From positions 1 through 41,231 of the forward strand of contig JAAYEB010000317.1 in assembly GCA_012728995.1 (NCBI GenBank): a stretch of 41,231 bases of DNA, read 5' to 3'. The notes beneath the pieces are model-generated. The model was not told the origin of the DNA. It saw only the letters and a program-made list of their open reading frames with translations, and ran no database searches. The position numbers and the translations under genes were made by a program. Shown in pieces: positions 2,928 through 40,234 of the stretch. This stretch comes from Fibrobacter sp. Its GTDB lineage: Bacteria; Fibrobacterota; Chitinivibrionia; Chitinivibrionales; Chitinispirillaceae. Each line of letters starts with the position of its first letter. Position 1 is the stretch's first letter.

Positions 2928-4064
2928 TTAACCAGACTTTTTTAAGTCAATGGAAATTTCCATATCACATCCCAGACTGTACCGTTTCGGATTCCAGTAA
3001 TATAGATAAAATTCAAGCGGCATAATCGATACAGGAATAAAATACTTGCCTTTTGGGAGCATGTTGAAATTGAAACGGGAGAGCCTGAGCCGGATTCCCG
3101 GAATCCAGGTATCGTATGCAAACGTAAGTGATGTTCCCCAGGATGCAGATCCCGGAGCTTCAAGAGAATCAAGTTCAAATTTCATAACAGGTTTTCTGTA
3201 TATTTCTTTATCAAAAAGGAGAAAGTAATTAAAACGGCTAAATTTAAAGTTGAAAGAATGTGATATGTTTTTTTTATGTGAATTGCTCCATTGCCGTTCA
3301 GATTGAGAAAGTATTGCAGGTTGGGATGTATGATCATAAAAATGATTAATGTTTTTTTCAAGCCAGAAATATTCAGGAATTAACCAGCCTGCCTGGCTTA
3401 GTTCATAACGGATAAAAGGTACACCCAAAGAAAAGGAGAATGCATGCTTTCTGTAATTATCATGGCTGTTTTCAATGAGATTATCTGCAAGATTCCCATG
3501 ATGCCATTTAATTCGCAATCCCGCCTTTGTACTAATAAAACCAATGTTTTTGCTTGCTTTCAGTTCAAGACTATTATTCAGTACAGAGGAACTGCTTGCA
3601 GACAGATTTACATCCTTGTATATAAAAAGGCCCTCAGGCCAGGAACCACAATCCAATAATAATTTTATTTTCTCTTTTGCACTTATTTTTTTGTCAAAAA
3701 CAGATTTCCAGATACTTGTATTATTACTCTTAAAAACATTCCTTTTGTCCGGTTTTAAAAGAGGAGTAAGCATTTCATTGTACTCTGAAAGAATTTTTTC
3801 CGTATGAATTGAATCAAGTTTTGCAATCTGTGTCCCATTATGGAATAAAATTAATGTATAATCTTTACAAGTATTAAGACAGATGCCAAATTCACATTCA
3901 CCATAAGGAAAAACAGTGCTGTCTATCCCGAAAATTTGAAATATTGCATAGTTATCTATAATTGAAGGTACACAGGGAGGACATGTGGAAGAAAAACCCG
4001 AAAAAAAAACAGTACATATCAAGACGAATACAAATGAGTAGTTATCTCTTATTGTAAAAAGCAA
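2928..4064 (-). CDS. Secreted protein of unknown function, first gene of the ExbB/ExbD-like unit
   Basis: A 378-aa open frame read from a TTG codon preceded by GGAG at a 5-base spacing. The N-terminus has a hydrophobic export signal (FVFVLICTVFFSGFSS) and then a cysteine-rich stretch (TCPPCVP, later GECEFGICLNTC), suggesting disulfides or a redox or metal site in the exported part. The C-terminal half contains alternating aromatic and polar strands (for example HAFSFSLGVPFIRYEL, SFNFKFSRFNYFLLF, LEFYLYYWNP), as in small outer-membrane beta-barrels, but I cannot confirm a barrel. It ends 9 bases before the ExbB-like gene and is the promoter-proximal member of the four-gene unit. I do not recognise the family. 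Confidence 0.65.
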   Translation of the reverse strand: MLFTIRDNYSFVFVLICTVFFSGFSSTCPPCVPSIIDNYAIFQIFGIDSTVFPYGECEFGICLNTCKDYTLILFHNGTQIAKLDSIHTEKILSEYNEMLTPLLKPDKRNVFKSNNTSIWKSVFDKKISAKEKIKLLLDCGSWPEGLFIYKDVNLSASSSSVLNNSLELKASKNIGFISTKAGLRIKWHHGNLADNLIENSHDNYRKHAFSFSLGVPFIRYELSQAGWLIPEYFWLEKNINHFYDHTSQPAILSQSERQWSNSHKKNISHSFNFKFSRFNYFLLFDKEIYRKPVMKFELDSLEAPGSASWGTSLTFAYDTWIPGIRLRLSRFNFNMLPKGKYFIPVSIMPLEFYLYYWNPKRYSLGCDMEISIDLKKSG

Positions 4065-12084: not shown

Positions 12085-12330
12085 ATGAGTATCCGATGGA
12101 TTAAGAATGTTTTAATTAATGGGGAAAAATCCACAATCGAAATACAGGTTGGTGACAAGAAAATAGGGGACAAATGCTATACCCGTATAAATAATGAAGT
12201 TGAATTCTGGTTTGAAAATATATACGATACACGAAATGATATTATCGCTCAGGGATTGGATATTCTTAAAAAAAGACTTGAAAGCAAAGAGGTTACATAT
12301 CCCGATGGAAGGCAATATGACTGGCAATAA
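12085..12330 (+). CDS. Small conserved-looking hypothetical protein (81 aa)
   Basis: An ATG preceded by AAAGGTGG opens an 81-codon frame between the repeat protein and the GH57 gene. The product is a soluble, mixed charged protein (VLINGEKSTIEIQVGDKKIG, then DTRNDIIAQGLDILKKRLES) with a beta-then-helix look. I do not recognise it. Its 3' end overlaps the GH57 start by 14 bases, so both are in one transcript and probably coupled. The good ribosome site and overlap argue that it is real. Confidence 0.65.
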   Translation: MSIRWIKNVLINGEKSTIEIQVGDKKIGDKCYTRINNEVEFWFENIYDTRNDIIAQGLDILKKRLESKEVTYPDGRQYDWQ

Positions 12331-14836
12331 AACAAAAGACGCGCCCAGGAGATGTGTAGTAATACATGGGCATTTCTATCAACCACCGCGTGAGAATCCA
12401 TGGATTGATATTATAGAAAAACAGCCTTCAGCTACACCTCAGGACAACTGGAATGAACGTATTTACGATCAGTGTTACAGACCAAATGCTTATTCCCGTT
12501 TACTTGATTCTGAAGGTATGATAGTAGATATACATAACAATTATCTGAGTATGAGCTTCAATTTCGGGCCGACACTTTTTTCGTGGCTCGAAAGATATCA
12601 TCCTTTAACGGCCAGGCGTATAATTGAATCTGATTCACAGAGTTGTTCGGCACTTGAAGGGCATGGGAATGCGATTGCGCAGGTATATAACCATATAATT
12701 ATGCCGCTGTCATCAAAAAGGGATCAGCTAACCCAGATCCGCTGGGCGAAACAGTTTTTCAGGAGCCGTTTTAAGAGAGAACCTGAAGGAATCTGGCTGG
12801 CCGAAACTGCTATCAACATGGAGACTGTTCTCTGTTTGATTGAAGAAAAATTCAAGTTTGTCATACTTTCTCCTAATCAGGCAGATAGTTTCAGACATAT
12901 TGGTGATGATTCTAAATGGGTTTCTGCAGAGCCTCATAAATTGAACACCAGGTATCCTTACAGAATTTTTCCAAGAAACCCTTCTGGCCAACAATTACCG
13001 GGTTGTCTTGACGTTTTCTTTTTTGATGAGGGCTTATCAAAAGAAGTCAGTTTCAATAATTTGTTAAAAGATTCAAATGTTTTTGGGGAAAGAATTAATT
13101 CCTGCTTTGATCAACATAGCACTGATCCTCAGGTAGTTACAATTGCTACTGATGGTGAAACGTTTGGTCATCACAAACCATTTGGTGACATGTGTCTGGC
13201 TTATTTTTTCAAACATGTTGCACAAAAACTTAATATCACTCCAGTGAGTTTCGGGTATTTTCTGGCAAAAAATCCACCGCGCTTTGAGGTAAGGTTGAAA
13301 AATGAATTTGGCGAGGGTACGGCATGGAGTTGTGCTCATGGTGTTGGAAGATGGATACGGGATTGCGGCTGTAAAACAGGAGGAAACGATTCCTGGAACC
13401 AGGCCTGGCGTACACCCCTCAGAGAAGCTTTGGTGAATCTGCAGGGAAAAATTGATCGGGAATATGAAAAAGCGTTTTCATCTTATGATATAGATCCATG
13501 GATAATCAGAGACAGATATGTTTTAACATTTTCCAGACAACCAATAAAAGACTTTAAAAATCTGTTGTCAGAATATGGCATTGAAATTGATGGCCGGGAA
13601 CAACTTTATGCTTTTAAAAAGTTTCTGGAAGCTCAAAAATTCATTCTTTTTTCTTTTACATCATGCGGTTGGTTTTTTTCTGACATAAGTGGTATAGAAA
13701 CGATGCAAAATCTTGCATATGCTTTTCGTGCGATCCAGTTGGGTATTGATCCGCAAAACCAGGCAGAAACACTCGAAAACTTTCTCTGTGATCTTGAAAA
13801 AGCGAAGAGCAATCTGCCCAACACTAACGGACGAACTTTGTTTGAGAGATATCTGTTATATTCTTCTGACCATCAGGAGATTATTGCTTTCACAGGAGCT
13901 GTTCACAAATCATTTGCTGTTAATAAAAACAACAGATTCGACCTGTTTGGATACACTCTTTCTCTGCGCCCGGTTCAGACAATGAAAGCTGGAGGTTTCC
14001 AATATGAAAGTTATTCAGTGCAGATAGAAAACGAACAGACCGGAGAGCATAGCGGCTGGTCTGTCATGATTTCTCATCGTGGAAATTCGGATATAAGCGG
14101 CTGGGTACTTCCAATTGAAGCTGTTCCTGTTTCACGAAAGAACGGGATTCGACCAGAATCATGGATGAGTCACAAAGATGTAAAGCGGCTGAATCTGATG
14201 GATATTTTTGATACATCACGACATGAACTTATGGACCTGTTTTTAAAGAGAATCTCTGATGATACAAATGCACGATTCAGCACATGGATCAAAAAACATG
14301 AACGGGAACTTGATATTCTGTCTCTGCTTAAATCATCACTTCCAACATACTGTACTGCACCTCTCTCTTTTGTGTTTCAGGAACAATGGAATAAAACCAT
14401 TATGCGTCTGGGGAAAAAAGGATCTGAAGAAAAGGCATTTTCTAAGTTACTTCAGTTGGACAGAGATATGCAGAGGTTCGAAATCACTATAGATTTGAAG
14501 AAAAGCGCTGAACTACTGGAAGACATACTGGTATCTGAGTTAAAAAGGCTTTCCTGCGATCCGGGAGCAGAAAAATGTGACAGGGTCAGGTGCCTGCTCA
14601 ACGTCGTTGATAGATTCAGCGTTCCTGTAACAAAGTCGAAACTGGAAGATCTTTTCCATCCGGTTTTAAATATCGAAGTCAAAAAACTCCATCAACAGTG
14701 CTGTCCGGACAGTCCGATTGAAATGAAAAAAGTAAACAGGGAAAAGAAAGCCTTACTCATCACGCTTCTAAATTTTGCCAGAAGAATGAATTTCAATACA
14801 GAATCATTCAAATTGGCAGAAATTCAGAATAAATGA
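12317..14836 (+). CDS. Glycoside hydrolase family 57 protein with C-terminal DUF3536
   Basis: GH57 enzymes act on alpha-glucans (amylase, branching or amylopullulanase activities). The 839-aa product begins with the GH57 hallmark VVIHGHFYQPPRENPW (about 15-30). GIWLAETAINMETV carries the expected nucleophile glutamate, and ATDGETFGHHKPFGD carries the aspartate acid/base region with the GHH motif. The C-terminal half, roughly residues 370-830, matches what I remember of DUF3536, which is fused to GH57 in many bacteria. I chose the ATG at 12317 because GGAAGG lies just before it; an in-frame ATG at 12305 would add four residues. No signal peptide is visible, so a cytoplasmic role in glycogen or maltodextrin metabolism is likely. 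Substrate is not determinable. Confidence 0.88.
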   Translation: MTGNKTKDAPRRCVVIHGHFYQPPRENPWIDIIEKQPSATPQDNWNERIYDQCYRPNAYSRLLDSEGMIVDIHNNYLSMSFNFGPTLFSWLERYHPLTARRIIESDSQSCSALEGHGNAIAQVYNHIIMPLSSKRDQLTQIRWAKQFFRSRFKREPEGIWLAETAINMETVLCLIEEKFKFVILSPNQADSFRHIGDDSKWVSAEPHKLNTRYPYRIFPRNPSGQQLPGCLDVFFFDEGLSKEVSFNNLLKDSNVFGERINSCFDQHSTDPQVVTIATDGETFGHHKPFGDMCLAYFFKHVAQKLNITPVSFGYFLAKNPPRFEVRLKNEFGEGTAWSCAHGVGRWIRDCGCKTGGNDSWNQAWRTPLREALVNLQGKIDREYEKAFSSYDIDPWIIRDRYVLTFSRQPIKDFKNLLSEYGIEIDGREQLYAFKKFLEAQKFILFSFTSCGWFFSDISGIETMQNLAYAFRAIQLGIDPQNQAETLENFLCDLEKAKSNLPNTNGRTLFERYLLYSSDHQEIIAFTGAVHKSFAVNKNNRFDLFGYTLSLRPVQTMKAGGFQYESYSVQIENEQTGEHSGWSVMISHRGNSDISGWVLPIEAVPVSRKNGIRPESWMSHKDVKRLNLMDIFDTSRHELMDLFLKRISDDTNARFSTWIKKHERELDILSLLKSSLPTYCTAPLSFVFQEQWNKTIMRLGKKGSEEKAFSKLLQLDRDMQRFEITIDLKKSAELLEDILVSELKRLSCDPGAEKCDRVRCLLNVVDRFSVPVTKSKLEDLFHPVLNIEVKKLHQQCCPDSPIEMKKVNREKKALLITLLNFARRMNFNTESFKLAEIQNK

Positions 14837-18002: not shown

Positions 18003-18935
18003 TTAAAAATGGAGATTGATGCCTGTGTTAAAGAGAAAACCGGCTCCGCCAAGATCAACGCTATTATCTGGTTTTTGAAATGGTATCAGAATTTTTCCGT
18101 CGAAATAAATTCCAACAGGAATCACAGGAAATTTTACCATTGCACCCAGATCAATGTGACAACCCCAGTGCGGTATCATCAGATTTGAGGTGATTTCTTT
18201 TATTATCTTCTTTGATATATCGTAATTGTCAAATATTTCACCACGTAATTCGTCAATTGTATTTACTGTTTCCAGATAAGGTTTCAGCGCATCTTCAATA
18301 AGCTTGTTGCTTAATACCGGGGTAGAAAAAATAAGGCTCAGCCCACCGCCACCATAAAATTTAACCGTTTTCAGGGCTGGCGGAAACTGATAGATATATT
18401 TTCGTACAGTCAGATCAAATTGAAGTTTCATGTATGGGGTTTTGTGAAAACCCCAGAAATCCATGCCAAACCTGTCAAGTGTAACACGGAGAGTATCGTA
18501 TTGAGCTTCAAACAGGTCCTGCGGACCGTTTATTTCAGATACATCGTCTTTGTATCGTATATCTGATGGAAACAGGATCGAACCGTCATACTCCCACCAG
18601 GCAAAGTTTGTAGATAATTCAACAGCATCAATGAATGGAATTATATCCAGATAAAATTTTACTCCAAAATTAAATGGAGTACGGTCCCAGCTTTTGCGAT
18701 TTATATATAAAGGTAGAAGATCTGCTGTTATAACAGTTAGTTCTTCAACAGGAACAGATCCTATACTTTCTGCATCGATTTTTAAAGCTTCCATGGAGAT
18801 CTGTTCACCAGTGACGTTATCCATTCTTAATGTAAAATCATTGCCCCAGTGAATGCCGAAACCAATTAGCGCAAATACTGAAGAGGAAAACATAGAGATC
18901 AAAAAAAATACAGTAATGAGACTTCTTCTGAACAT
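18003..18935 (-). CDS. Exported outer-membrane-type hypothetical protein
   Basis: The start was set at the ATG at 18935, which has AAAAGGAG upstream and opens directly onto a signal peptide (MFRRSLITVFFLISMFSSSVFA); the frame extends 54 codons further upstream without support. The mature part, about 288 aa, starts with GFGIHWGNDFTLRM and ends with a run of amphipathic strands closing on an aromatic residue (GAGFLFNTGINLHF). A C-terminal phenylalanine is typical of outer-membrane barrels assembled by the Bam machinery. KFYLDIIPFIDAVELS and LKFYGGGGLSLIFS look like barrel strands. I do not recognise the family; Fibrobacter-type genomes have many such lineage-specific proteins. Confidence 0.7.
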   Translation of the reverse strand: MFRRSLITVFFLISMFSSSVFALIGFGIHWGNDFTLRMDNVTGEQISMEALKIDAESIGSVPVEELTVITADLLPLYINRKSWDRTPFNFGVKFYLDIIPFIDAVELSTNFAWWEYDGSILFPSDIRYKDDVSEINGPQDLFEAQYDTLRVTLDRFGMDFWGFHKTPYMKLQFDLTVRKYIYQFPPALKTVKFYGGGGLSLIFSTPVLSNKLIEDALKPYLETVNTIDELRGEIFDNYDISKKIIKEITSNLMIPHWGCHIDLGAMVKFPVIPVGIYFDGKILIPFQKPDNSVDLGGAGFLFNTGINLHF

Positions 18936-19279
18936 AAATCTCCTTTTTGAAAAACAAAACTTAAGGGTTTTGTAATAAGTATTGTAGTAATCAGATAGAT
19001 AAGCAGTACTGTTCAAAAGCCAGATTAAATATATATTTGCCTTGAAAAGTAAGTCAAACCTTATGGGGGCGATTAGGTTAACGATAGCTGTCGTCATATT
19101 CCAAAATTTGGGATGGACTGTTTTTTTAACTTTTGTGACAATTTTCGAAAAAAAAGCAAAAAGATAGTCCGTCCCGAAAAATCAAAAATTGAAACAAAGG
19201 TGAAAATGTTTTAGTTTTCAATCTGGTTTCACGTTTAGAAGTAATAAAATCAAATCGAAAAGAACAGGTATCATATATT
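18936..19279. promoter_or_regulatory. Divergent intergenic region with a long wobble-paired inverted repeat
   Basis: This 344-base gap separates two genes pointing away from each other. Arms at 19108-19120 and 19165-19177 match as TTGGGATGGACTG against TAGTCCGTCCCGA. In plus-strand RNA all 13 positions can pair (three G-U pairs). In minus-strand RNA those three become A-C mismatches. It may be a leader structure of the lolA-like transcript or the relic of a DNA element. No consensus promoter stood out. Confidence 0.45.
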
Positions 19280-25855: not shown

Positions 25856-26206
25856 GGGGGTGTACTGGCTTTCGACGGGAAATGGGAGATATTGAACAGC
25901 ATGTCGAGGATATCGGTTGGCCTCGTTAATCATCCGGTAAAATTATAATTGCCGAAGATTATTCTTTCGCAATGGCTGCTTAATAAAGCGGCAACTTGAG
26001 CAGGGAGCGCACTTCTTTTTGCTTGAGCAGTTTAAGGTGCTGGTCCGGAAAAGGGTACCGGTTTCCGGATGAGATTTTTGGTACTGGGCACATTGTAAGC
26101 GGGTTTGTCGGCGTACGGTGTGTCGAGATTAAAAGACAGACTAAGCATGTAGCGGTTCATATTGATCGTTTTTCGGACAGGGGTTCAACTCCCCTCACCT
26201 CCACCA
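25856..26206 (+). ncRNA. ssrA: Transfer-messenger RNA (tmRNA)
   Basis: tmRNA rescues stalled ribosomes and tags the unfinished protein for proteolysis. The 5' end GGGGGTGTACTGGCTTTCGA carries the conserved D-arm-like TTCGACGGG element. The 3' end has the T-arm GGGGTTCAACTCCCC followed by CACCTCC and an encoded ACCA. GGGGGTG and CACCTCC pair over seven positions (one G-U) to close the acceptor stem. The tag frame ends in a double stop (TAATAA). A run of eight T directly follows the CCA end and probably terminates transcription. Total length is about 351 nt, normal for one-piece tmRNA. Confidence 0.97.
25951..25983 (+). other. tmRNA proteolysis-tag reading frame
   Basis: From the GCC resume codon at 25951 the frame encodes AEDYSFAMAA, then TAA TAA. 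It is 10 residues, like E. coli ANDENYALAA, and ends in the degradation-type -AA. The resume codon is inferred from tag length, frame and the alanine start. Confidence 0.8.
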
Positions 26207-34520: not shown

Positions 34521-36674
34521 TCAGGAATCAAACAGATATTGTACAAAAGTATTTATTGTGAGTCGTGAATAGATGTTTGATACTTTGTTGTAATCGAGAG
34601 CGGTTGACCATACGAAATTTTTCGCCATTTTTCTGGAATACAATCCATGGATATCAAAACCAACAGCCGTACCGTCTGTACTTTCATCCATGCAGTACTG
34701 GAATGATGGTCCGGTAGATATTTTGATTTCATGTACATTTTCATCCATGTAGCTATACTCTAAACGCGGATTATTAATTACAAAACTTTGAGGACTGAAA
34801 TAACCCCCGGGTTCCGGCGTTGTATCCACAAAATCAAAACCGGAACGATCTTTTCCATAATGCCTCAATTCGAAATAATAAGCACAGGAAATAGAATTGA
34901 ACGTTTTGAATTCGAATTTGAATCGACCATCCGCACTAAGGCCAACCAATGAGTTGGGGTTAACTGATTTTGACGAAACCCATCCAAAATATGGGTAAAA
35001 CCGCCCTTCCAGAAAACGGTTTTCGGTAGATAGTTCAGCAAAAAAACGGTTATCTCTTGCTGTACCAATCCATGAACCATCCTGAACCTTATGCCCGGCA
35101 AGAGCAGGTATCGATTCATAAATCAGCTCTCTTGAGTATCCGGCTTTTAAAGAACCGGATTGTGTGTTTTTGGTAAATTTCAACAAAAACTCATTGCCAT
35201 CACCATTTTTCTTGAGAGAGTGATGACCATACATGAAATTGAACACATACATTGATGATAAACGATATTCAGCATTCAATCTCACCAGAAACCCGTCTGC
35301 ATGAAGCATTGTATCACCGCCCCAGAATGATTCATATCCAAGTTCTGCACCAGCCGTGATATTGTACTTCGGATTGAACTGGCCCTTGGCGGTAATTGCG
35401 ATTCCGGATAGCCCAAACCAGTCTCCTGGTTGATTTATGTATTTGACATTCAATCCTGCATATGGTTCATTGCCACGCATTAATTCCCTTTTCAGGTTTA
35501 ATGCACCAGAATAACCGTATTTTGATGCAAGCTCTGAATGCATAACAGCTTTATCCTTTTCACCAATCCAGGCATAAGCACCTGCAATACCCTTATGTGC
35601 AGCTCCATTACGTGGTTGGGAGCGCAAAACAATCTCATATTGCTTAATGGCTTCGGGTACCGTTTCTTTATTACTGCTTAAAAGGTTTGCGTATTTTAGT
35701 CTGACTCCGGTATTTCCAGGATTGGTCTGAAGAATTTTCTTATACTCCTTTACCGCAACATCCCTTGTTGATGATTTTCCGGATAGCAGGTCGGCATATT
35801 TTTCCCTGACAGAATTGTTGGCTCCACGGGAGAGTACTGTTTCAAACTCTTTTTGGGCATCTTCGAATCTGGAGGGATCTGCGGCAAGACATTGGGCATA
35901 TTCAAGACGTAATTTCATGTCCTGCGGACGTTTTTTTACCAGTTTTTCATACTGGATAATGGCATCTTTATTATAGCTCCTGTCTCTTGACAATAGTTGT
36001 GCATGCTGATAATTGATATTGTAGTTGTCGGGATTTTGGGAAGCAAGCTGCTGATACTCTTTAATTGCAGTGCCAAGGTATCGTTTATCCCATAAGAGTA
36101 ACTGACGATATTCATCCAGGTACTTTTTGTTCGACGGATCTTCTTTAAGCAGTTTTTTATACTCGGCAACCGCTTCATCGAGATTTTCTTTATCCGCAGC
36201 AAGCAGACGGGCCAGTTTATATCTGTATCTGCGATCGTTTTTTAGTTTTAATCCTTTTCGATAATAATCAATTGCATCATTTTTTCTGTATCTGTAACGC
36301 TCCCACTGAAGAAAGTCGCCAAGTTTGAATGCAATTTCAGCATCATCTCTGAATCTGTTGAAATACTTCTCATACTGTCCGATTGCTTTATCTGTCAATC
36401 CCTGTTTCTCATACGCTTCACCAAGTGATTTCATTGCTTCGCGGTTATCCGGATTTATCTGCACAGCCTTTTCAAACGCTTCAATGGCAGCACGATAATT
36501 ATTAATTTTCATGTTGGATCTGCCGCGCATTATATACCACGATTCCTTGACTCCTCCTGAACTTGCAGCAGTCAAAATTAAAATCATAAACAGTATCTTA
36601 ATATTGTAAGTCAGTGGACATCTCCTCGAACAATAGGTTTTAAAACAGTTGAACAAGCACCCTGTGCTCGACAT
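34521..36674 (-). CDS. BcsC-like TPR protein with C-terminal outer-membrane beta-barrel
   Basis: BcsC-type proteins carry cellulose across the outer membrane: periplasmic TPR repeats lead into a barrel. The 717-aa frame has a hydrophobic export segment (ILFMILILTAASSGG), then about ten TPR units from residue ~50 to ~405, each with the A-x-x-x-Y-E/K pattern (NYRAAIEAFEKAVQINPDN, DKAIGQYEKYFNRFRDD). From ~420 on come alternating strands (YNITAGAELGYESFWGG, FMYGHHSLKKNGDGNEFLLK) ending with a Phe near the terminus, as in barrels. It is shorter than E. coli BcsC (about 1150 aa). The true start is uncertain. The ATG at 36674 has AGGTG in a hairpin; a GGAG inside the gene precedes a CTG. The next gene upstream is the synthase. 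Confidence 0.8.
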   Translation of the reverse strand: MSSTGCLFNCFKTYCSRRCPLTYNIKILFMILILTAASSGGVKESWYIMRGRSNMKINNYRAAIEAFEKAVQINPDNREAMKSLGEAYEKQGLTDKAIGQYEKYFNRFRDDAEIAFKLGDFLQWERYRYRKNDAIDYYRKGLKLKNDRRYRYKLARLLAADKENLDEAVAEYKKLLKEDPSNKKYLDEYRQLLLWDKRYLGTAIKEYQQLASQNPDNYNINYQHAQLLSRDRSYNKDAIIQYEKLVKKRPQDMKLRLEYAQCLAADPSRFEDAQKEFETVLSRGANNSVREKYADLLSGKSSTRDVAVKEYKKILQTNPGNTGVRLKYANLLSSNKETVPEAIKQYEIVLRSQPRNGAAHKGIAGAYAWIGEKDKAVMHSELASKYGYSGALNLKRELMRGNEPYAGLNVKYINQPGDWFGLSGIAITAKGQFNPKYNITAGAELGYESFWGGDTMLHADGFLVRLNAEYRLSSMYVFNFMYGHHSLKKNGDGNEFLLKFTKNTQSGSLKAGYSRELIYESIPALAGHKVQDGSWIGTARDNRFFAELSTENRFLEGRFYPYFGWVSSKSVNPNSLVGLSADGRFKFEFKTFNSISCAYYFELRHYGKDRSGFDFVDTTPEPGGYFSPQSFVINNPRLEYSYMDENVHEIKISTGPSFQYCMDESTDGTAVGFDIHGLYSRKMAKNFVWSTALDYNKVSNIYSRLTINTFVQYLFDS

Positions 36675-36676
36675 GT

Positions 36677-36698
36677 ATACACCTGTGAACAGGTGTAT
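36677..36698 (-). promoter_or_regulatory. Hairpin covering the candidate ribosome site of the TPR/barrel gene
   Basis: In minus-strand RNA AUACACCUG-UUCA-CAGGUGUAU is a perfect 9-bp stem with a tetraloop. AGGUG within the 3' arm lies 5 bases before the AUG at 36674, so folding would hide it. The stem is followed by AC and the AUG. There is no U-tract on this strand. Confidence 0.6.
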
Positions 36699-36817
36699 GC
36701 TTTTTCAGCCATGAAAACATTATATTCATTATCTATTTACAGATGTTTATCAATTATTTGTCTCTATTCCGGTAAAAACCAGGTTTGGAATTTACTTTCC
36801 TTTAGTGTTCAAAAAGT

Positions 36818-39800
36818 TCAAAACGATTGTATGTTCCCGATTTTCATGGTAGCAATCATCTCCATTTCCTGCCCTGTATTTAACACCTTTTCATCTTCAA
36901 CGAATCTTAGTCCTGCCCGCCATATTGAAGGAAGTATTTTTTTAGTGTAAACCATTTCGGCACGGTTCTGAAATTTGCCATCGTGAAAAGACCAGGTATC
37001 GGCAATTGGTTTCTTGGTTGAAAACACTATCACGCCCAATCCTTTTTCTGAACGATCATAGATCAATACAGAAACCGGTTTTTTATCCATCAGCATGACT
37101 GCATGGGTGAAAACAATCTGCCTGTGTGTCAATCTTCGTGTAGTCCTTTGAGGCAAAAATCCCTTAACCAGACCGGTAAAATAGTGGTATACCATAGCAG
37201 CGGAATTTTTTGGACGTTTTTCATGAGCTCTTTCCCAGGTTTGGGGCGAACTGAAAATCATCAGGAACAATCTCTTTTTTAGTTCCGGATCCATGTTTTT
37301 GAACTGGTAACCGGCGCGTGATTCCTTACTGAATATTTTTTCACAATAAACCATCTGCGCACCAATACGCAGTGAATTCTCAAATTCCACAATGGCGAAT
37401 TGTGGCCAGATCTGGCCTTCTGGAATTTTTACTCCTAGCCCATCGATACTCAGATCCTGTGTTTCGGTGACAAATGAGCCCTCTTCTCCAACAATGCGGC
37501 ATTTAAATGGAAAAGTGGCACGTTCTTCAATACGTCTCTGAGGTCTTTCCCATGCTACTATCAATGAAGACAAAAGAAACAGAAGATTAAACACTGCCCA
37601 TCCGATATTAAAGAAGTATGCATCCTGTTCTATACCGAAATAATTAAATTCAAAAACACCTTTGGCAATTGCCACAACCGAGATTCCTGAAGCGATCAAT
37701 ACCGCCATTGATGACCTGTAGTCAAAAACCCTTTTGTCGGAAGTAAGGCCTTTTGGAGTTACTTTGAATGCAAGCTTTTTTGGAAGGAACAGATCAAATA
37801 CAGAACGAAACATCTGAAAAAATATGATATTTTCGTATGCCTGACCCCATAGCATCCTTGGCCATTTTGGCAGGATCGCAGAATTGAGCAAAGGAACAAT
37901 TATCATGTAAGGAACAAGATATGCCAGTAATATTGTGACATCTGAGAAAATTGGGTGAAGATGGAAAAAAAGGTAATACAGTGGTGTAATCCAGAAGATC
38001 ACTTTTGGAATCGGGTAAAAGAAATAAAATAGTGATGCGAAATAACCCAATTTATGACGAATCGAGAGGTTTTTCATAAACAAAGGATTATCTTTGAAAA
38101 AAATCTGAAGACACCCAAGCATCCAGCGTCGCCGCTGAACTATATATGAAGACAGATTTTCAGCAGACAAACCGCAGAGAAGATTTTTGTCTACAAAAAC
38201 AGATTTCCAGCCATGTGCATGAAGATGTTGGCTTGTATGAATATCTTCAGTAATACTGAGTAGCTGAAATCCACCAATCTCTTCAATAGCCTTGCGCCTG
38301 AAAACAGCACCGCTTCCAACAAAAAAAGCTCCACCCCAGTTATCACGCGCCCCCTGAATACCGTGATTAAACATTGCACTCTCATCAGGAATACTTTTTT
38401 CTTTGCTGAACGCGCGCTGAAAAATATCTGAATTGGAAAAATTGTGTGGTGTCTGAAGCATACCTGTTTCAGGATCACTAAAATAGGGGACAGTTTCTGA
38501 AAGAAAAGAGTTTACCGGAATATGATCAGTATCGAACACAACCAGCAGCTCTCCATCAGTTTTTGTAAAAGCATTGTTCAAATTTCCTGCTTTTGCGTGC
38601 TGTTTAGGACCACGGATATAGTTTACCCCCATTTGTGATGCCAGTTTGACGACTTCACTCTTATGGCTGTCATCACAAATATGAATTCGTTTGTTTTCAT
38701 ACTTGATGGCTTGTGCGGCAATAACGGTTTTTCTCAGAATTTCGACCGATTCGGAATAGATAGGAATAAAGATATCAACAGTTGGGTTATATGAAGGGCA
38801 GGTTATCTTTTTGCGATGGTTTTGTGGCTTAAGGCCAACCTGAATCAACAAAAAAACAACTGTGAAGAAACAATAAACTTCTGCTACCCATAATGAGATA
38901 CTGATGAACGGTCCTGCGGGTTCAAGAAAATTCAATGTGGATAGTAATCTCCATGCGAGATATCTCACGCAGATGTAAAAGGATAACGCAAGAAAAGCTA
39001 TCTTTACAGGTTTATAAAATTTTTCATATACAATTTGCATTATTAAATAAAGCAGGAGAGCAGAAATCAAGAGCAGCCAGGGGAAATGTACCGAAAAAGT
39101 TCGGTATTCCATTGGTGAGAGGAAATCAAGAAATTCATTGAAGTTTTTAATCGCTTTCAATTCAAATGCTTTCCCGAACCACAACCAGTTATGAAGGTAA
39201 TACGGGGTATCTTCATCCGAAACCGCTTTTTCCCATAGAGCACCGAGTTTGTTTTTCAGCTCGCCTGCCAGTTGCTTGTCATTTACAGAAGCCAGGGCTG
39301 AAACGGTAGCATAAAGAGGAAGCCCTTCAAATTCGGATCTCGAAACACCATCACAAGTATAGGTATCTAAAAATTTCCTTTTCTTTTTCCACTCTGACTG
39401 AAAAAACTCGAGCATCCGGGTTCTTAATTTCTCCTGTTTTCTTCCATACCATCTGTAATCTACCGCAACACGCCAGAATATCGGAAAAGCATCATAACTG
39501 AAAACCGGTCTGTCTTTATGATTAGGTCTCTTCAGATAAAAGGTATTATCTTTTTTATTCAGGTAGATAATTTCTGGCGGCAAGGAGAGTTCCTGTTCAA
39601 AGTAGATCCAGTCAAGAATCTTGTATGAAGATTCGACCAGTTTTTCCCATGGATGGGCAGTATCAACCGAAGCAAATGTTTCATAAGCATAAGGTGCGAG
39701 ATATGCGACGTGGATTGTTGGATACTTTTCCTTTGGAGCCCAGTTTCCGGCTGTAAGATAACAGGAACTGTCTACTTTTACAACTTCATTTTCCCAGATT

Positions 39801-40234
39801 GAATTCATAATTTTTATAGCTTCAGAGGCGTATGTTTCATCGGAAAATTTTCTTGAAGCCAGTAATAATGCAAGCGCAATATCTACATCTGCATCAGTGG
39901 CAGCATTCCAGTCTAATACCTGGTTTTTATATTTCCATGCAAAAAGCCCGTCATCACGCCTTAAATTTTTCCTGGTCCATTCCCACACAGTATCAAAAAT
40001 GTCCTGATCATTTGCCCATACTGCACGAAGCATGGCATAACTTTGTCCCTCAGAAGTAGTTATCCCGTTTTCATCATGACTGACCACTTTACCATTGTCG
40101 ATATAATTAAATTTGTAAAAACTCCAGAGCGCAAAGAGATCATCTTTTTGCTTGACATAATCAGCAGATACAATTCCAGTTAACAGCAGGATGTATAAGA
40201 GGGGGAGAGTAACTTTTTTAGATATCCAAAACAT
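36818..40234 (-). CDS. bcsA: Fused GH8 cellulase - GT2 cellulose synthase - double PilZ protein
   Basis: One 1138-aa polypeptide. Residues 1-24 form a signal or anchor. About 28-370 is a GH8 domain like BcsZ: TTSEGQSYAM with E62, ATDADVD with D114/D116, and FSYDAF with D248, so catalytic residues look intact. Transmembrane helices follow at about 383-465. The GT2 domain spans roughly 485-705: CDD (521-522), DTD (568-570), TED (662-664) and QRRRW (700-704), then channel helices and the FKVTPKG gating segment (823-829). Two PilZ domains follow, each with RxxxR and DxSxxG: R901/R905 with D927-G932, and R1034/R1038 with D1060-G1065. Synthesis should thus be c-di-GMP-gated. In most species BcsZ and BcsA are separate proteins and one PilZ is normal. 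No ribosome site precedes the ATG. Confidence 0.93.
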   Translation of the reverse strand: MFWISKKVTLPLLYILLLTGIVSADYVKQKDDLFALWSFYKFNYIDNGKVVSHDENGITTSEGQSYAMLRAVWANDQDIFDTVWEWTRKNLRRDDGLFAWKYKNQVLDWNAATDADVDIALALLLASRKFSDETYASEAIKIMNSIWENEVVKVDSSCYLTAGNWAPKEKYPTIHVAYLAPYAYETFASVDTAHPWEKLVESSYKILDWIYFEQELSLPPEIIYLNKKDNTFYLKRPNHKDRPVFSYDAFPIFWRVAVDYRWYGRKQEKLRTRMLEFFQSEWKKKRKFLDTYTCDGVSRSEFEGLPLYATVSALASVNDKQLAGELKNKLGALWEKAVSDEDTPYYLHNWLWFGKAFELKAIKNFNEFLDFLSPMEYRTFSVHFPWLLLISALLLYLIMQIVYEKFYKPVKIAFLALSFYICVRYLAWRLLSTLNFLEPAGPFISISLWVAEVYCFFTVVFLLIQVGLKPQNHRKKITCPSYNPTVDIFIPIYSESVEILRKTVIAAQAIKYENKRIHICDDSHKSEVVKLASQMGVNYIRGPKQHAKAGNLNNAFTKTDGELLVVFDTDHIPVNSFLSETVPYFSDPETGMLQTPHNFSNSDIFQRAFSKEKSIPDESAMFNHGIQGARDNWGGAFFVGSGAVFRRKAIEEIGGFQLLSITEDIHTSQHLHAHGWKSVFVDKNLLCGLSAENLSSYIVQRRRWMLGCLQIFFKDNPLFMKNLSIRHKLGYFASLFYFFYPIPKVIFWITPLYYLFFHLHPIFSDVTILLAYLVPYMIIVPLLNSAILPKWPRMLWGQAYENIIFFQMFRSVFDLFLPKKLAFKVTPKGLTSDKRVFDYRSSMAVLIASGISVVAIAKGVFEFNYFGIEQDAYFFNIGWAVFNLLFLLSSLIVAWERPQRRIEERATFPFKCRIVGEEGSFVTETQDLSIDGLGVKIPEGQIWPQFAIVEFENSLRIGAQMVYCEKIFSKESRAGYQFKNMDPELKKRLFLMIFSSPQTWERAHEKRPKNSAAMVYHYFTGLVKGFLPQRTTRRLTHRQIVFTHAVMLMDKKPVSVLIYDRSEKGLGVIVFSTKKPIADTWSFHDGKFQNRAEMVYTKKILPSIWRAGLRFVEDEKVLNTGQEMEMIATMKIGNIQSF

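Follow-up and report, generated by a model that had tools for sequence, protein, structure and literature searches.

A natural fusion of a GH8 domain, a BcsA-like GT2 domain and PilZ-type domains in the Chitinispirillaceae

In a 41,231-nucleotide stretch of DNA from a Fibrobacter sp. genome (hereafter the window, meaning the whole stretch that was analysed), a single gene joins a GH8 cellulase domain, a BcsA-like GT2 cellulose synthase domain and two PilZ-like domains in one polypeptide. A full-length ortholog in another genus confirms that this fusion is real and natural, and a gene for a short BcsC-like outer-membrane protein accompanies it. Our best reading of the pair, which we hold with moderate confidence, is a two-gene, c-di-GMP-gated unit for cellulose synthesis and export with a trimming cellulase built in. 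Its detailed topology, its cellulose product, the trimming role and c-di-GMP binding are what we infer. Table 1 lists the features.

Table 1. Features of the fused gene and its downstream neighbor (window coordinates; residue numbers refer to the fused protein)
Feature	Position	Strand	Basis
Fused GH8-GT2-PilZ-PilZ gene, 1138 aa ("bcsZA")	36818..40234	-	ORF; Pfam/NCBIfam; full-length 61% ortholog
Predicted cleavable signal peptide, residues 1-24, VSA|D	40163..40234	-	Hydrophobic 4-26; small-x-small site by eye; ortholog AFA|N at same place
GH8 (BcsZ-type) domain, residues 36-328; E62, D116, D248	39251..40129	-	Pfam 4.3e-40; alignment to CelA and other GH8 structures; BcsZ grouping 97/92
Three transmembrane helices before GT2, ~384-402, 410-430, 446-464	38822..39100	-	Kyte-Doolittle scan
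GT2 cellulose synthase domain, residues 485-777	37904..38782	-	Pfam, TIGR03030, E. coli BcsA alignment, motifs
C-terminal membrane-spanning region; gating-loop motif FKVTPK at 823	37547..37969	-	BcsA alignment, hydropathy, motif
PilZ domain 1, residues 899-994; RRIEER 900, DLSIDG 927	37253..37540	-	Pfam 2.9e-6, over cut-off; ortholog 7.8e-11
Second PilZ-like domain, ~residues 1030-1112; RRLTHR 1033, DRSEKG 1060	36899..37147	-	Motif spacing in both orthologs; similarity to PilZ 1, z=7.2; weak AF2/Foldseek support
Short BcsC-like outer-membrane protein, TPRs and BCSC_C-like barrel, <=717 aa (start possibly some codons downstream)	34521..36674	-	TPR models; BCSC_C 9.3e-7; 47% ortholog

The fused gene and its ortholog

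The gene is one uninterrupted ORF whose ATG start is secure: just 2 open codons precede it in frame, with an in-frame TAA before those (open frame, 1140). Pfam models for all three domain types scored over their curated cut-offs (Glyco_hydro_8, 4e-40; GT2 models, 2e-22 and others; PilZ, 3e-6), and the GT2 half aligns with E. coli BcsA at E=4e-95. The original prediction, made from the sequence, had placed GH8, GT2 and PilZ domains in a single 1138-aa frame, and the ORF, the Pfam and NCBIfam matches and the existence of a full-length ortholog all agree with it. The NCBIfam TIGR03030 CelA model spans residues 386-1011 (1e-157) but its score of 525.9 bits lies below the cut-off of 699.1, as does that of the ortholog (500.8), and the BcsZ model, which covers residues 27-357, gave 102.4 bits against a cut-off of 299, again below yet highly significant. 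Since both scores are sub-equivalog, we regard the protein as a diverged relative of both families rather than a textbook BcsA or BcsZ, and its substrate could differ.

The catalytic residues are kept in both enzymes, as had been predicted. In an alignment of the GH8 domain, E62 (within TSEGQ) and D248 (within SYDAF) line up with the counterparts of what we take to be E95 and D278 of Clostridium thermocellum CelA, and the conserved Asp of TDAD is residue 116. The scan of the GT2 half found CDD at 520, HAKAG at 546, FDTD at 567, QTPH at 594, FFVGS at 637, TED at 662, QRRRW at 700 and FKVTPK at 823. These include the substrate and gating motifs of BcsA.

The ortholog, found on contig C115 of genome G018 (public contig JAFGIN010000051.1, a Chitinispirillaceae MAG of the phylum Fibrobacterota), comes from another genus of the same GTDB family, is 1142 aa long and is 61% identical at the amino acid level (68% in nucleotides) end to end. 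The fusion is known from these two genomes, both of them fragmented MAG-type assemblies, as would suit an assembly or binning artefact in which two adjacent genes were wrongly joined; we give that explanation next to no credence. At this degree of divergence an independent contig has the identical junction, the same start layout and the same downstream gene, and the GC content of the fused gene (0.396) is close to that of the window (0.379). The GH8/helix junction is gap-free in the alignment, and over residues 355-400 the orthologs differ by 0.37/0.24/0.63 at codon positions 1/2/3, a pattern that indicates a translated stretch under protein-level selection. The original prediction had named codons 365-385 as the place where a frameshift or joining error might lie; the full-length ortholog, which aligns without a gap there, rules the artefact out. 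The other neighboring genes differ, with pyrR here and metH and the start of a flagellin gene in G018 (metH and flagellin by eye). A search of 72,556 plasmids gave 536 records with a match, none of which covered 80% of the fusion query, and a scan of genome contigs with two narrow GH8 peptide patterns, a weak guide to other phyla, recovered the known ortholog alone.

By hydropathy, the fusion has a hydrophobic N-terminus (residues 4-26) and, after the signal peptide and GH8, three helices ahead of the GT2 domain where BcsA has four; in this genome's canonical BcsA, a longer N-terminal hydrophobic stretch (11-46) stands where the first of the four expected helices would be. Loss of that first helix with gain of a signal peptide and a GH8 would leave the GH8 outside and the GT2 inside. 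The hydropathy topology (signal peptide, three helices, cytoplasmic GT2) thus supports the proposal in the original prediction that the fusion tethers a cellulase in the periplasm at a 1:1 ratio with the synthase, although the topology in detail is only predicted. Only a short stretch lies between the GH8 match and the first helix. An AF2 model of the full-length fusion from a two-row alignment had a pLDDT of 32 and was left out of the fold search.

The first PilZ domain was recognized by Pfam over its cut-off in both orthologs (Table 1). The RRxxxR and DxSxxG motifs occur twice in the fusion (900/927 and 1033/1060) and lie 27 residues apart in all four domains, two per ortholog; the second PilZ-like domain is 31% identical between orthologs, and its motifs and spacing are nonetheless kept. 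Pfam PF07238 gave no match to this second domain even at E<=1. Compared with PilZ 1 of the same protein, it scored z=7.2, with 0 of 1000 shuffles as high; the same comparison within the ortholog gave no significant similarity between its two PilZ domains, and an hhalign profile comparison of PilZ 1 with the second domain was collinear and weak (E=0.07). The AF2 model of the second domain has six strands, at a low pLDDT of 50.8, and in Foldseek PilZ proteins were among its highest-probability matches (VCA0042, 0.72; BcsA, 0.60-0.63), with E about 1. The earlier claim of two complete PilZ domains therefore holds for both motif sets and for PilZ 1, whereas the second domain, with no Pfam match, is likely to have a PilZ fold on the strength of its motifs and weak fold evidence. 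The two fusion genomes have 13 and 14 GGDEF matches, so c-di-GMP is probably made in both organisms, and dual c-di-GMP sensing by the fusion is plausible; cooperative control, as suggested in the original prediction, is conjectural. No c-di-GMP riboswitch was found upstream; a tmRNA was the sole RNA match in the window.

Relatives of the fusion within and beyond the phylum

Like BcsA (TIGR03030/CelA; the E. coli and Rhodobacter sphaeroides structures), the fusion has the GT2 motifs, the channel helices, the FxVTxK loop and the RxxxR/DxSxxG motifs of PilZ; unlike BcsA, it has a GH8 in place of the first helix, a second PilZ-like domain, no adjacent bcsB and a score under the family cut-off. Its GH8 resembles BcsZ, the GH8 periplasmic endoglucanase, in catalytic residues and in tree grouping, but rather than being free it would be tethered to the membrane at 1:1 with the synthase. 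A phylogeny of 35 GH8 domains, only three of them BcsZ references, placed both fused GH8s with the free-standing BcsZ proteins of proteobacterial bcs operons (support 97/92) and away from the family's numerous other GH8 proteins. By this grouping the GH8 is of BcsZ-type origin, and the fusion looks like bcsZ joined to bcsA. Capture of the domain from the host's own plant-cellulose-degrading GH8s is unsupported, since the fused GH8 groups with BcsZ.

The layout has a precedent in the GH17-GT2 "orphan"/NdvB synthases of pseudomonads, in which a signal peptide, a GH domain, three helices and a GT2 make up one chain (PMC10237404). These share with the fusion the signal peptide, the periplasmic GH, the three helices and a BcsA-like GT2, and differ from it in carrying a GH17, in their beta-1,3 chemistry and the altered GT2 motifs that go with it, and in lacking PilZ. 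Where the fusion keeps HxKAG, QTPH and FxVTxK, the beta-1,3 synthases have GFKGG, QSPQ and FFRTPK (PMC10237404); since the GH17-GT2 enzymes differ at substrate and acceptor motifs, beta-1,4-glucan is the likeliest product of the GH8-GT2 fusion. Chiefly because of the GH17 layout, we see the fusion as a variant rather than a class of its own. A 2016 survey also reported bacterial GT2 domains joined to cellulase, xylanase or chitinase domains, with no details in the main text (PMC4928363). For the GH8-BcsA-PilZ-PilZ form itself we found no description in the papers searched, our search beyond the phylum being limited to plasmids and the narrow contig scan. The original prediction's claim that the architecture is undescribed was nevertheless overstated, given the GH17 layout (PMC10237404), the survey of GT2-hydrolase joins (PMC4928363) and a GH5-GT2 version that is common in the phylum.

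That version is a ~1050-aa protein of a Fibrobacter-like genus, composed of a signal peptide, a GH5 cellulase, three helices and a BcsA-like GT2, and is present full length in 21 genomes and in pieces in 2 more (~23). It shares phylum and layout with the GH8 fusion but differs in its GH5, in the loss of PilZ motifs (its C-terminal region gave no PilZ match and no PilZ motif) and in having no BcsC-like neighbor in the one fully read locus. The GT2 halves of the two kinds of fusion do not group in the tree, yet the AU test did not reject a common clade (p=0.101, with long branches), so the main ground for assuming two independent fusions is that the cellulase folds are unrelated. Within one phylum, two unrelated cellulases sit at the same terminus of a BcsA-like GT2, which speaks for a benefit of the tether. 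Cellulose loci in which GH8 and GH5 replace each other as separate proteins are known (PMC9693552, PMC7710045): in clostridial and Acidisarcina loci the cellulase, CcsZ/GH5 among them, is either a GH8 or a GH5 and, unlike in the fusion, stands alone (PMC7710045, PMC9693552).

Partner genes and proposed function

Directly downstream of the fusion in both genomes lies the BcsC-like gene (~715 aa), whose products are 47% identical and match BCSC_C over the cut-off (9.3e-7 here, 3.2e-5 in the ortholog); at up to 717 aa it is shorter than the canonical BcsC of the same genome (a 1291-aa frame). Because this gene adjoins the fusion in both genomes and is absent from all the others among 168 of the phylum, we treat the two as a conserved unit. 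Within the families checked, there is no bcsB in the fusion operon or the window, which bears out the original prediction on this point. The genome's only BcsB is encoded elsewhere, in a separate bcsQ-A-B-C operon whose GC content is 0.59-0.60 amid ~0.40-0.41; this operon is acquired and of other origin than the fusion unit. G018 has a similar operon, and a short contig of a third genome, G014, carries the BcsA-BcsB part of one; these three are the only genomes of the 168 with BcsB. The stand-alone bcsZ of the operon is reduced to remnants in both fusion genomes, with different pieces left in each.

In the two-gene unit that we favor, the signal peptide would direct the N-terminal GH8 into the periplasm and the three membrane helices would return the chain to the cytoplasm, where the GT2 would polymerize UDP-glucose. 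The nascent beta-1,4-glucan would leave through the GT2's own membrane channel, beside the tethered GH8, which may cut stalled or stray chains or set chain length, a fixed-position version of the job of free BcsZ. The BcsC-like TPR/barrel protein would then convey the chain over the periplasm and the outer membrane. PilZ 1 would gate the synthase by c-di-GMP as in BcsA, and the second PilZ-like domain may be an extra c-di-GMP sensor or a docking PilZ. In E. coli, it is cellulase activity and not the BcsZ protein itself that is required for cellulose secretion, and unrelated cellulases can substitute; that study suggests that jammed or misplaced chains are trimmed, and it did not detect BcsZ binding to BcsC (PMC11379886). 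Trimming by a tethered GH8 fits with this requirement for activity.

The main rival to this reading is that the fusion is a bifunctional synthase of a short or modified beta-glucan, the GH8 releasing or transglycosylating the product as in the GH17-GT2 NdvB-like enzymes. It would account for the layout shared with GH17-GT2 orphans, which are proposed to make cyclic beta-glucan (PMC10237404). Divergence of the fusion from BcsA, below the CelA cut-off, and the short gap between GH8 match and first helix also suit it. We nonetheless consider it unlikely: GH8 is an inverting family, which makes transglycosylation improbable, the fused domain groups with BcsZ, and a dedicated outer-membrane BcsC-like gene indicates export, not a periplasmic product.

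The lack of a bcsB in the operon counts against our favored reading, as the bacterial BcsA systems characterised so far are reported to need BcsB for activity (PMC5070118). In a second alternative, the fused synthase might use the BcsB, and perhaps the BcsC, of the acquired operon, with its GH8 replacing that operon's broken bcsZ. A canonical bcsQ-A-B-C operon in both fusion genomes, with the BcsA-BcsB part in one more (3/168), and the bcsZ remnants in this genome and in G018 are what such borrowing would leave. Against it, the two units are unlinked and differ in GC (0.59-0.60 vs 0.40), several other GH8s in the genomes could provide a cellulase, the fusion operon has its own BcsC-like gene, and three related genomes are too few to claim co-occurrence; we find it more doubtful still than product tailoring by the GH8. 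Synthesis free of BcsB has a precedent in cyanobacterial cellulose systems that do without it (PMC12430437). Tentatively, and as a possibility well short of our favored two-gene unit, the phylum may have invented BcsB-free two-gene cellulose secretion twice, with GH8 and with GH5, the tethered GH8 taking BcsB's place at the channel mouth, where it would both guide and cut the chain under dual PilZ control.

The reason that cellulose synthesis in bacteria (and plants) depends on a cellulase is a matter of continuing debate, and since free BcsZ has not been seen on BcsC (PMC11379886), the site at which it acts is unclear. A cellulase fixed 1:1 at the synthase, and fixed there again with an unrelated cellulase in the Fibrobacter-like genus, supports action on the nascent chain. 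The fusion would also offer a single-protein system for knocking out polymerase, hydrolase and sensors separately.

The fusion gene and its surroundings

Downstream of the fusion gene, a hairpin sits exactly between this gene and the earliest ATG codon from which the BcsC-like protein could be read; that protein may truly start further downstream, at about residue 30. Elsewhere in the window, the GH57 protein is probably an alpha-glucan enzyme, and a Pfam search gave no match for three ORFs of 363-378 aa (1827-2918, 2928-4064 and 18003-19097 (-)).

Features by locus
Feature	Position	Strand	Remarks
tmRNA gene	window 25856-26206	+	Rfam 193 bits
GH57 + DUF3536 protein	window 12194-14836	+	880 aa
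Hairpin	window 36675-36700		11 pairs; T-run on + strand
GH5-GT2 fusion	L035 265-3408	+	further loci L033-L039, L051-L073
GGDEF gene	L046 7970-9343		genome G105, after GH5-GT2 fusion gene; assigned by eye
bcs operon	L029 906-10213		own genome, contig C114
bcs operon	L030 2651-11966		genome G018
bcs operon	L031		genome G014

Related cellulose synthase loci

About 23 genomes of a Fibrobacter-like genus encode a GH5-GT2 fusion protein of about 1050 aa, from which the PilZ motifs have been lost. Three genomes of the fusion organism's family carry a separate bcs operon of high GC content, apparently acquired; in two of the three operons the bcsA, bcsB and bcsC frames are open while only remnants of bcsZ, differing between genomes, are present.
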